Origin: Nocardioides sp. S5
GTDB lineage: Bacteria; Actinomycetota; Actinomycetes; Propionibacteriales; Nocardioidaceae
Direction: 5' to 3'
Assembly: GCF_017310035.1 (NCBI RefSeq)
Contig: NZ_CP022296.1
Coordinates: 4,464,001 to 4,528,000, forward strand
DNA length: 64,000 bases
A program made the position numbers and the translations under genes. The notes beneath the pieces are model-generated. The model did not search any database, was not told where the DNA came from, and saw only the letters and a list, made by a program, of their open reading frames with translations. This document shows positions 9,435-12,874 of this stretch, piece by piece. Position 1 is the first letter of the stretch, and the number at the start of each line of letters is the position of its first letter.

Positions 9435-11309
9435 GTGAGCCACTACAAGACCAACCTCCGCGACATCGAGTTCAACCTCTTCGAGGTCCTCGGCCGGGAC
9501 GAGGTGCTCGGCACCGGACCCTTCGGTGACGTCGACGGCGAGAGCGCCCGCGAGATCCTCCGAGAGGTCGAGCGCCTCTCCCGCGAGGACATCGCCGCCT
9601 CCTACGAGGACAGCGACCGCAACCCGCCCGTCTTCGACCCGAGCACGCACACCGCGCCGGTGAGCGAGTCGTTCAAGGCCTCCTACCAGGCCTGGATGGA
9701 CTCGGAGTTCTGGCGCCTCCAGGTCTTCGAGGAGATGGGCGGCACCCCCGCCCCCTCGTCGCTGATCTGGGCGATCGGCGAGATGGTGCTCGGCGCCAAC
9801 GCCCCGGTGTGGATGTACGCCGCCGGTCCCGCCTTCTCCAACCTCTTCCACCGCAACGGCAACGAGCGCGACAAGGCCGTCGCCCAGCACATGGTCGACC
9901 GCCAGTGGGGCTGCACGATGGTCCTCACCGAGCCCGACGCCGGCTCCGACGTGGGCGCCGGCCGCGCCAAGGCCGTCGCCAACGACGACGGCTCGTGGAA
10001 CATCACGGGCGTCAAGCGCTTCATCACCAGCGCCACCCACGACATGAGCGAGAACATCATGCACCTCGTCCTCGCGCGCCCCGAGGGCGTCGAGGGCGTG
10101 GGCGGCCCGGGCACCAAGGGCCTCTCGCTCTTCTGGATGCCCGAGCACCACTTCGACCCCGAGACCGGCGAGCTGACCGGCGAGCGCAACGGCGTCTACG
10201 TCACCAACGTCGAGCACAAGATGGGCATCAAGGTCTCCAACACCTGCGAGGTCACCTTCGGCGACCCGCAGGTCGGCGGCGGCGAGCCCGCGAAGGGCTG
10301 GCTGCTCGGCGAGGTCCACGACGGCATCGCCCAGATGTTCCAGGTCATCGAGAACGCCCGCATGATGGTCGGCACCAAGGCCATCGCCACGTTGTCGACC
10401 GGTTACCTCAACGCGCTCGACTACGCCAAGGAGCGCGTCCAGGGCGCCGACCTCACCCAGGCGGCCGACAAGACCGCCCCACGCGTGACGATCACCCACC
10501 ACCCCGACGTACGCCGCTCGCTGATGACGCAGAAGTCGTTCGCCGAGGCCATGCGTGCGCTGGTGCTCTACACCGCCACGTGGCAGGACCAGGTCATGGT
10601 CGCCGAGCACGAGGGCACCGCCGACTCCGACGAGGCCCGCCTCGCCGCCGCCGTCAACGACCTGCTGCTCCCGATCGTCAAGGGCTACGGCTCGGAGCGC
10701 TCCTGGGTGCTGCTCGGCACCGAGTCGCTCCAGACCTTCGGCGGCTCCGGCTTCCTGCAGGAGTACCCGATCGAGCAGTACGTCCGCGACGCCAAGATCG
10801 ACACCCTCTACGAGGGCACGACCGCGATCCAGGGCCAGGACTTCTTCTTCCGCAAGATCGTCAAGGACCAGGGCCGCGCGCTGGGCCACCTGGCCAAGGA
10901 GATCGAGGGCTTCATCGCCTCCGAGGCCGGCAACGGTCGCCTCAAGAACGAGCGGGCCCTGCTCGCCACCGCGCTCGAGGACGCCAACGCCATCGTCGGC
11001 CACATGATCAACGACCTCATGTCCTCGCAGGAGGACGTGCGGAACATCTACAAGGTCGGGCTCAACACCTCGCGCCTGCTGATGGTCCTCGGCGACGTCG
11101 TCTGCGGCTGGCTGCTGCTGCGCCAGGCCGAGGTCGCGCTGGACAAGCTGTCCGGCGAGGTGTCGGCCAAGGACAAGGCGTTCTACGAGGGCAAGATCCA
11201 CGCGGCGCAGTTCTTCGCGCAGACCAACCTGCCGAAGATCCGCGCCGAGCGCGCCATCGCCGAGGCCACCACCCTCGACCTGATGGACCTCGACGAGTCG
11301 TCCTTCTGA
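9435..11309 (+). CDS. Large acyl-CoA dehydrogenase
   Basis: The 624-residue flavoprotein belongs to the long acyl-CoA dehydrogenase class (FadE5/AcdA-like, about 600 aa), which oxidises acyl-CoA to trans-2-enoyl-CoA in beta-oxidation. It shows an N-terminal extension ([17 protein letters not shown]), the FAD-site strand [14 protein letters not shown], and the C-terminal [10 protein letters not shown] segment that contacts FAD/acyl-CoA. The GTG at 9435 is favoured over an in-frame GTG at 9426 by conserved sequence and by the purine-rich GGTGGAAG upstream. It is monocistronic here. The IS110 element begins about 50 bp after the stop. Confidence 0.93.
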
Positions 11310-11323
11310 TCTCCGCACCTTCG

Positions 11324-11359
11324 CCGGTCGAGTAGCCGGCGAGCGCCAGCGAGCAGGCG
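11324..11359. repeat. Left half of a dispersed inverted repeat, split by the IS110 element
   Basis: The 36 bp starting CCGGTCGAGTAGCC and ending GAGCAGGCG correspond to the reverse complement of 12718-12754. The natural continuation, TATCGAGACC, is found only at 12686, on the far side of the insertion sequence. This defines the IS insertion point. Confidence 0.7.
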
Positions 11360-11375
11360 ACGGTCCTATGCCGCG

Positions 11376-12458
11376 TCAAGTGGTCATGAGGTCTGTTCGG
11401 AGGGCTCTGTAGACGCTGCGGGCGAGGTGGCGTTTGAGGCAGCGGATGATCTCGGGGGTGGATAGTCCTTCGGCGCGCCGTCGCTCGACGTAGGCGCGGG
11501 TTTCCTCGTGGCGGCCCATCCGTCCGACGGTGATCATGTAGAGCGCGGAGTTGGCTTGGCGGTCGCCCCCGGGATTGAGTCGGTGGCGGCGGGTCTTGCC
11601 GGAAGAGGCGGGAAGCGGAGCAACCCCGACGAGCTTGGCGAAGCTGGCTTCGGACCGCATCCGGTCGATGTTCTCGCCAGTGCTGATCGCCAACTGGGCG
11701 GCGGTCTGGACTCCGACCTGGGCCATGGCAAGCAAGGACGGGCAGGCCTGTTGCACGAGGGTCGCCAGGTGCTTGTCGGCCTCAGCGATCTCGCCGTCGA
11801 GGTAGGCGATGCGTCGCGCCAGCGCTCGTAGTGCATGGCGCACCGCGTGGTCGGGATCAGCGACCCGGCTCGGGTCGGGGCGCATGGCCAGGACTTTGGC
11901 TACCCGCTTCTTCCCGCTCAGCCCGATCAGGTCGTCGTGAAGGCGCCCGGATGCAGCGGTGATCAGGTCACGCAGCTGGCTGTACGCGGCGGTGCGGTTC
12001 TTGACCGCCGCATCGCGGGGGACCTTGATCACGCGGATCGCCTCCACGATCCCGGTCTTGACCTTCGGCCGACCGCTCGCGCGCCCGGCCAGGACCTGCT
12101 CGGCTGCCGAGTAGGCGTCGAGCGGGTCGGACTTGCCGTGTCTGACCCGGGTGGCCCTTTCCGGCCGGTTGACCTCGAACACCTCGAACGCACCCGCCCC
12201 GTGAGTGAGCAGGTGGCGGGTCAGCCCCGCACCGTAGGAACCGGTCGACTCCACTCCGACCGCGAGGACCGGACCGTAGGTCGCGGCCCACGACACCAGT
12301 TCGCCAAAGCCAGCCCTGGTCGCGGGGAACTCACGATCTGCCAGCCGGCCGAAACGAGCGTCGATCACGGCCGCGACATGGACCAGTTGGTGGGTGTCAA
12401 CACCCACCACCACGCCGGCCCCATCAAGAACTTGTTCTTCAACAGACACATCACTCAT
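11376..12458 (-). CDS. IS110-family transposase (DEDD plus Tnp20 domains)
   Basis: The 360-residue recombinase has an N-terminal RuvC-like DEDD domain: G-V-D-T-H-Q with Asp21, then G-V-E-S-T-G-S-Y-G, then G-K-S-D-P-L-D-A. A coiled helical region follows, then the C-terminal Tnp20 domain, with V-G-V-A-P-L-P-A-S-S-G-K supplying the candidate catalytic serine and L-N-P-G-G-D-R-Q-A-N after it. The reading frame is intact and of normal length, so the element may be active. In this family the enzyme works with a bridge RNA from the element end; the candidate region is upstream at 12459-12685. Confidence 0.95.
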   Translation of the reverse strand: MSDVSVEEQVLDGAGVVVGVDTHQLVHVAAVIDARFGRLADREFPATRAGFGELVSWAATYGPVLAVGVESTGSYGAGLTRHLLTHGAGAFEVFEVNRPERATRVRHGKSDPLDAYSAAEQVLAGRASGRPKVKTGIVEAIRVIKVPRDAAVKNRTAAYSQLRDLITAASGRLHDDLIGLSGKKRVAKVLAMRPDPSRVADPDHAVRHALRALARRIAYLDGEIAEADKHLATLVQQACPSLLAMAQVGVQTAAQLAISTGENIDRMRSEASFAKLVGVAPLPASSGKTRRHRLNPGGDRQANSALYMITVGRMGRHEETRAYVERRRAEGLSTPEIIRCLKRHLARSVYRALRTDLMTT

Positions 12459-12685
12459 GCTGGAAATGTCTCCTTCACCATCGTGTGAAAGATGACCTTC
12501 CAGGTCGGGCGGACAGTACAGCGACGGGAACTTCTTCAGGGTCCTATGAGGTCACGCCCGCCCGGCCTGGCCACCAGAACAGACAAGCCCTGCCGGGGCC
12601 GACACGTCGCACTTCAAGGCAGCCACACCAAGCAGCGCCAGTATCGAGATAGGTCAGACCCCGACCGGGTAACCCATCCTCCCTG
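12459..12685 (-). ncRNA. Candidate bridge-RNA region of the IS110 element
   Basis: The 227-bp non-coding 5' end is the place and size where IS110-group elements encode their bridge RNA. Read on the minus strand, the first internal 9-mer (12649-12641) is identical to nine bases of the flanking target at 12693-12685. Further along, a second 9-mer (12548-12540) is identical to the opposite end of the element (11370-11362). That order, target guide then donor guide, is the order of the two loops in the described IS621 bridge RNA. Short stems such as GCCC/GGGC and GGTC/GACC are visible. The guide assignment is my inference. Confidence 0.5.
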
Positions 12686-12754
12686 TATCGAGACCTCTTG
12701 TTCCACGGGTCTCGATACGCCTTGCTCGTTCCTCGCGCGGCTACTCGACCACCG
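12686..12754. repeat. Dispersed palindrome (GGTCTCGATACGCC class)
   Basis: TATCGAGACC (12686-12695) pairs with GGTCTCGATA (12708-12717) around a 12-nt loop. The right arm continues through CGCCTTGCTCG to CTACTCGACCACCG, matching in reverse complement the left arm at 11324-11359. Such long dispersed inverted repeats are, to my recollection, common between genes of Nocardioides. From here to 12874 no further gene is seen. Confidence 0.75.
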
Positions 12755-12874
12755 AGAGCTGGGCTGCTCACTCGGCTGCTCAGCCAGCGGTTGGCCGCCG
12801 GCATGACAGGTGTCACGCCGAGGTCGTGACCTCTGCCCCCTGTCCGCCGGGACCGGGGCGGCGAGGCTGGAGGC

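Follow-up and report, generated by a model that had tools for sequence, protein, structure and literature searches.

The closest described counterpart of the locus considered here is IS621, an IS110-group element of E. coli. Its reports outline a DEDD recombinase with an upstream noncoding end, a target loop that precedes the donor loop, handshake bases beside the right guides, a left guide that pairs with the bottom strand and a right guide that pairs with the top, and a target within a dispersed repeat (REP in E. coli); a junction promoter is also described, and the core is a dinucleotide whose second base, T, is almost invariant (PMC11208160, PMC11208158). Work on the seekRNA of ISEc21, of the IS110 family, reports that the two matches stand in opposite orders in IS110 and IS1111 elements (PMC11187229). 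ISPa11, ISPpu9, and ISPpu10 insert in dispersed extragenic repeats of Pseudomonas and Sinorhizobium, and the abstract of that work names no guide (PMC1525189); ISPa11 is of the IS1111 type (PMC11187229). The traits outlined for IS621, its core dinucleotide excepted, recur, as far as sequence tells, in a complete IS110-group element on the minus strand of a 64,000-nucleotide stretch of Nocardioides sp. S5 (NZ_CP022296.1, positions 4,464,001 to 4,528,000; hereafter the window), where it occupies positions 11360-12685. The order of its two matches is that of ISEc21, its target is a different one, and, like ISPa11, ISPpu9, and ISPpu10, it sits in a dispersed repeat. A limited literature search on IS110 with Nocardioides and on bridge recombinases returned no description of the element.

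With a probability of roughly 0.93, this is a working or recently working Nocardioides IS110-group transposon that inserts by bridge-RNA-guided recombination. Sequence evidence for this reading comes from the seven copies, which share one 12-bp target word, from the guide words and their covariation with the targets, from covarying stems, and from a conserved junction promoter. A first-pass annotation had set the element at 11360-12685, called it intact, and proposed two 9-mers of its noncoding end as bridge-RNA guides for target and donor. Unoccupied sites and relatives bear out the bounds, and the element is indeed intact. The first word, GTATCGAGA, is located at 12641-12649 and repeated at 12685-12693; the second, GGTCCTATG, is located at 12540-12548 and repeated at 11362-11370, and the target word precedes the end word when both are read in the sense of the transposase gene. 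Among 20,000 dinucleotide shuffles of the noncoding end, read on either strand, the target word appears in 13, the end word in 29, and both in none, a modest support since the words were freely chosen. Comparison with relatives provides the real support for a guide function. Among the parsed loci, either 9-mer occurs only in the noncoding end of the window element; the relatives carry other guides, which on average fit their own targets better than the targets of other elements.

The host genome (G000, 4.75 Mb in one contig) contains seven copies of the element, six of them identical across the 1324 bp compared; the seventh (L006) has five differences, every one within the open reading frame (ORF). 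The length is 1326 bp with one shared C counted. Comparison of flanks, which the annotation had suggested, reveals the same target site at all seven copies: TCTCGATAC at the left junction (12685-12693 on the minus strand in the window, its last C, 12685, being the shared crossover base) and CATAGGACC-GT-C-GCC at the right junction, where the shared C (11359) is followed by the right target GCC (11358-11356). Of 39 occurrences of TCTCGATAC in the genome, 7 are left junctions, 7 are the guide within elements, and 25 are unoccupied. GCC directly follows 13 of the 25 unoccupied sites by our own count (one listing has 12 exact TCTCGATACGCC sites, omitting that at 2761885) and all seven occupied ones, an outcome with a chance of 0.023 given 20 GCC among 32 sites. 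As judged from these sites, the target is TCTCGATAC|GCC, because occupied and unoccupied sites read GCC and an exact TCTCGATACGTCGC was searched for in the genome and not found.

The AC at 11360-11361 (GT in the transposase direction), just outside the end word, belongs to the element because unoccupied sites read TCTCGATACGCC, exact TCTCGATACGTCGC is absent, and relatives keep similar bases at this place (CATAGGAGC(A/G/T/C)TC or near variants). The annotation's target core, TCTCGATA, is more accurately given as TCTCGATAC|GCC, in which one shared C is the crossover. A target of TCTCGATAC|GTCGCC, recognized by a 7-nt right target guide GCGACGT, was considered and rejected: there is no exact GTCGC site, the unoccupied sites read GCC, and the relatives place GT within the element. 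The misleading match to GCGACGT is the joint sequence with which the right guide and handshake pair.

Six copies lie within a dispersed repeat whose right part is GGCTACTCGACC or a near variant. This repeat, GGTCTCGATACGCC...GGCTACTCGACC with partly inverted ends, is present at 12694-12760 of the window and at other places in the genome. Only 16 bp separate the left target of the window copy from an unoccupied target at 12710-12718, which is oppositely oriented. The remaining copy, L007, lies outside the repeat in a 285-codon open frame, not checked as a real gene, and when its flanks are joined with one C the frame reads through (TDLDTPIRVE). L003 and L005 have 60 nt of left flank in common; independent insertions are therefore counted as at least six.

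A search for related loci in the genome_contigs collection yielded no relative. Relatives were further sought in 147 genomes of the genus Nocardioides, G000 included, and 79 contain the protein or more distant kin. Membership of the genus agrees with L045 (G034), which across 3685 bp is identical to a contig of Nocardioides daeguensis 2C1-5 (L167). Thirty loci were fetched, among them the copy of the window element itself; 26 were parsed, and the tests draw on 25 of these, comprising the window element plus 24 relatives. The parser failed on L040, L054, L055, and L056, and L032 was left out with its left flank cut off; L053, a truncated transposase match, was kept. Right ends were located by motif and left ends by matching the donor right guide to the sequence that follows the shared C. 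The target guides play no part in this placement, which keeps the target tests independent of them. Left ends are probably misplaced in L036, which was kept in the 25, and in the G039 copies L058, L060, and L063, which lie outside the counts.

The left target guide, TCTCGATAC at 12641-12649 of the minus strand (the first word of the annotation), follows the target from lineage to lineage. The 9 nt left of each junction were compared with the whole zone from the left end to the donor guide, taking the best match, with 20,000 permutations. Across the 25 lineages the mean match to the lineage's own target is 7.72 of 9, versus 6.14 for other targets (p<=5e-5; highest permutation 6.92). Exact matches number 9 of 9 in 11 lineages, 8 in three, 7 in six, 6 in three, and 5 in two. 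When the guide is sought at a fixed structural position, found in 19 of 25 lineages, the values are 7.05 and 3.93 (n=19); the register is wrong in L036, L037, L039, and L043, whose rows were kept. Among close relatives, whose proteins are 68-94% identical, the guides differ and match the target of the element that bears them: TGGACTGAC in L048, CGGTATGAC in L051, and TGTCGAGAC in L046. L048 (G045) also has its left end twice in tandem with N between, perhaps an assembly join.

The right target guide, GCG, and an adjoining handshake, ACG, occupy 12605-12610 of the minus strand, the pairing of the third handshake base being read from the sequence. GCG pairs with C-G-C of the target and ACG with T, G, and C of the donor. 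Scored over four positions with G-U counted as half, the right guide matches its own target at 2.84 versus 1.51 for others (p<=5e-5, n=19). The anchor is missing in five of the 25 lineages (L029, L030, L039, L041, L044), the contig of L049 extends too little beyond the right end, and the anchors of L036, L037, L042, and L047 look misplaced and were kept. Guide and target covary across relatives, as expected of a bridge RNA and to the extent that sequence can tell.

The left donor guide, CATAGGACC at 12540-12548 of the minus strand (the annotation's second word), is identical to the element's right end. Guide and right end read TAGGACC and TAGGACC in the window, TAGGGGC and TAGGGGC in G044, and TAGGAGC and TAGGAGC in many others; the match to a lineage's own right end averages 7.12 of 8, versus 6.82 for others (p<=5e-5, n=25). 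The fit is imperfect in one subgroup, with ATAAGAGC versus ATAGGAGC, and in another, with TCAGGAGC versus CATAGGAGC. Comparison with relatives places the right donor guide, CCCGTCGCTG, at 12528-12519 and its handshake TA at 12518-12517 (together 12517-12528 of the minus strand). This guide fits imperfectly by eye, with one mismatch and an apparent one-base bulge, whereas IS621 has two flipped bases (PMC11208160, PMC11208158). TA pairs with the target A and T beside the shared C. The annotation had correctly named the left target and left donor guides and had missed the right guides, the handshake bases, and the junction promoter.

That promoter appears only when the ends are joined. A -35-like box, TTGACG, lies in the right end at 11374-11379 (minus strand), overlapping the transposase stop codon, and a -10-like box, GAGGAT, lies in the left end at 12676-12681 (minus strand); both were identified by comparison and controls, and only in a circle with joined ends are they 18 nt apart. 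The final 40 nt of the right end contain TTGAC in all 25 lineages; in each of four 40-nt control windows further upstream, none of the 25 has it. Across the joint, a NANNNT box follows in the left end of 24 lineages, 17 nt (5) or 18 nt (19) further on; when the left end is slid by 6-63 nt, such a box is found in 0-8 of the 25. In L033, L035, and L053 the -35 box lies 3 nt nearer the joint and the -10 box 3 nt further off. The sole failure is L036, the lineage with a probably misplaced left end. The joined ends are thus predicted to carry a promoter, the arrangement described for IS621.

The RNA was folded from 12488-12684 (minus strand), with transcript ends predicted only. An alignment made for covariation, which covers 12 of the 25 lineages, yields a target-binding-loop stem with its 5' arm at 12653-12669 and its 3' arm at 12588-12603 (both minus strand). 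It comprises 21 pairs, 93.2% of cells paired, with 14 pairs changed on both sides; none of 500 shuffles reaches either value, and slid controls are 33-53% paired. In the RNAalifold structure the first five columns are paired with the donor right guide as well, which is read as donor DNA with its guide and not as a stem. The donor-binding-loop stem has arms at 12551-12575 (5') and 12491-12514 (3'), again on the minus strand. Its column alignment has a weak covariation term (-1.07) and ragged 3' arms, so an arm-partner test was used instead: the mean duplex energy is -35.8 kcal/mol with the arm's own partner versus -27.8 with others (p<=5e-5, n=25). If the guides are constrained to stay unpaired, the RNA of the window element adopts two stem-loops, and in both of them the guides sit in an internal loop. 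An Rfam search of 11300-12800 returned nothing at E<=1. A structured RNA with compensatory changes is conserved in this end, which the annotation had taken as necessary for its proposal, and the predicted layout is that of a bridge RNA: a target loop followed by a donor loop, both equipped with a left and a right guide that can pair with target or donor DNA, respectively.

The 360-aa IS110 transposase (11376-12458, minus strand) matches PF01548 at 3e-21 (76.3 bits, cut-off 29) and PF02371 at 1.5e-15 (57.8 bits, cut-off 21.3), the DEDD RuvC-like and C-terminal Tnp domains expected of the IS110 family (IS110 group). The noncoding DNA upstream of the transposase is about 227 nt from left end to start codon, a long region such as is expected in this group; the right end downstream is very short. 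Two solved structures match at E<=0.01, and only weakly: IS621 (8wt6, 27.6 bits) and the ISCro4 transposase (9t56, 27.5 bits). D21, E70, D111, D114, and S286 are the probable catalytic residues by sequence. E70, in a weak alignment, and S286 align with E60 and S241 of IS621, assuming that the PDB chain is numbered two higher; D21, D111, and D114 were assigned by motif position only. Three further IS110-type transposases with 29-31% identity are encoded in the same genome (L110-L112; G000:C1 1251630, 426698, and 515520).

Taken together, the features suggest the following course of transposition, in which transcription, RNA binding, circle formation, and strand exchange are presumed. Excision would join the right end to the left end as CATAGGACCGTC|AGGGAGGATGGG, creating the promoter across the joint. 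The transcript would form two loops, one for target binding and one for donor binding. In the first, the left guide would pair with one strand of the genomic site TCTCGATAC|GC and the right guide with the other; in the second, the guides would pair with the joined ends, CATAGGACCGTC|AGGGAG. The transposase would then exchange strands at the shared C, and the handshake bases beside each right guide would pair with the partner DNA after exchange.

Several observations weigh against guided insertion as read here. The window's own right target guide pairs at only three bases, with a mismatch at the fourth, and without a fixed place the right-guide test weakens to p=0.004 (n=24). Exact identity of the left target guide is 6 of 9 or less in five of 25 lineages (L029, L031, L035, L042, L053), and matches of 6-7 of 9, and likewise of 5, lie near the background of cross-pairs; by eye, the fit of L029 and L031 improves with G-U pairs allowed. 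Permutations ignore shared ancestry, and L045 and L049 have a target in common, as do L046 and L047. The donor-guide test rests on few positions, the search motifs for the donor guide and right end permitting little variation, and the donor right-guide test is circular since the same match placed the left ends. Fold energy alone is a weak indicator, with z of -1.09 over 185 nt and -1.95 over 197 nt.

Three other accounts of the copies were weighed. The repeat contains six of the seven copies, and the word has many occurrences outside the element, with a large part of its 25 unoccupied sites in the repeat, as would be the case if the protein recognized the dispersed repeat and the 9-mers were leftover repeat DNA picked up by the element. 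L007 speaks against this account, being outside the repeat and sharing only the guided word, and so do the relatives with other targets (an IS3-type transposase gene, an HNH-type gene, other repeats), in which the RNA word at the same place changes; the word follows the target over 25 lineages, and recognition by protein is accordingly very improbable. The 60-nt left flank common to L003 and L005, one of which may be a duplication, might instead hint that copies spread by recombination between repeats, in which case a shared site would say nothing about guiding. The other flanks differ on both sides except for the repeat, and the open frame around L007 is restored once its flanks are joined, leaving spread by recombination with hardly any credence at all. 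A last possibility grants that the two words are guides and holds that the element is now immobile. Six of the seven copies, at different sites, agree exactly in ORF, ends, and RNA region, a sign of recent spread; immobility is thus unlikely, with some weight left to it. Guided insertion by a working or recently working element is the reading retained.

Some relatives have been found at protein-coding addresses. L059 and L061 are two of seven copies in G039 that are alike over about 2.5 kb, element included; their joined flanks place the insertion at the HNH motif of an HNH-type gene, where PPEWCDAH^HL(D/E)PWAAGG reads through. L033, L035, and L038 (G044, G065, G061) are inserted at a conserved motif of IS3-type transposase genes, GDCFD^NSVAES with rve and HTH_21 domains in L035 and, by eye, DSYD^NAMA in L033 and L038. 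Their left guides partly spell their own sites (7, 6, and 7 of 9), and a right guide, GCGTTG, fits AACGC; one transposon seems, by its sequence, to address catalytic-region codons of another. The HNH label comes from motif recognition only, as does the IS3 label apart from the Pfam domains of L035. L031 (G117), which also has Pfam domains, is inserted in an IS481-type transposase gene (rve, LZ_Tnp_IS481) next to NGKA, and joining its flanks does not restore the expected frame across the site.

The core is the point at which the element departs from IS621. In the window the target reads AC and the donor TC, so that only the C is shared, versus the shared CT dinucleotide of IS621 (PMC11208160, PMC11208158). 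The base before the shared C is A in the targets of 21 of 25 lineages and T in the donors of all 25; the donor T and shared C were required by the search motifs, making their constancy one of construction, and the copies of the window element, G044, and G055 display both directly. The handshake of the donor loop follows target positions 7-8 (p<=5e-5, n=25): handshake and target bases before the shared C are TC and GA in 17 of 25 lineages, TG and CA in two, and TA and TA in the window, while L028 and L030 fit with one G-U each and L031, L036, and L053 fit incompletely. Its T, present in 23 of 25 lineages, fits the target A in 21. In the target loop, the second base after the right guide follows donor position 7 (p=5e-4, n=20) and is A, fitting the donor T, in 17 of the 20 lineages with an anchored right guide.

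A tentative suggestion, at well under even odds, is that this clade represents a variant form of bridge-RNA system: its shared core would have been reduced to a single C, the neighboring position would have turned into handshake, and the guides would have been repeatedly re-addressed to conserved multi-copy words, among them dispersed repeats, codons of the IS3-type transposase catalytic region, and the HNH motif of repeated genes. Each loop might then carry a base that fits the partner DNA after exchange and not before, a notion to be regarded as possible and rather doubtful. The handshake would be ordinary if the shared C corresponded to IS621 position 8, as its spacing from the handshake favors; guide length and top-strand cleavage favor position 9. 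If the one-base core is real, the layout would favor the recombined state and give insertion its direction.

What could be tested agrees with the IS621 bridge-RNA layout, the one-C core excepted, and on this sequence evidence the element is a readable new example of a recently discovered mechanism, not a new mechanism. It offers a natural actinobacterial bridge-RNA element whose guides, DNA partners, and empty sites can all be read. With two dozen relatives in one genus bearing differing addresses, comparison by itself is enough to test the guide rules, and the core rule of the clade may be unlike that of IS621, a prospect relevant to builders of programmable recombinases.
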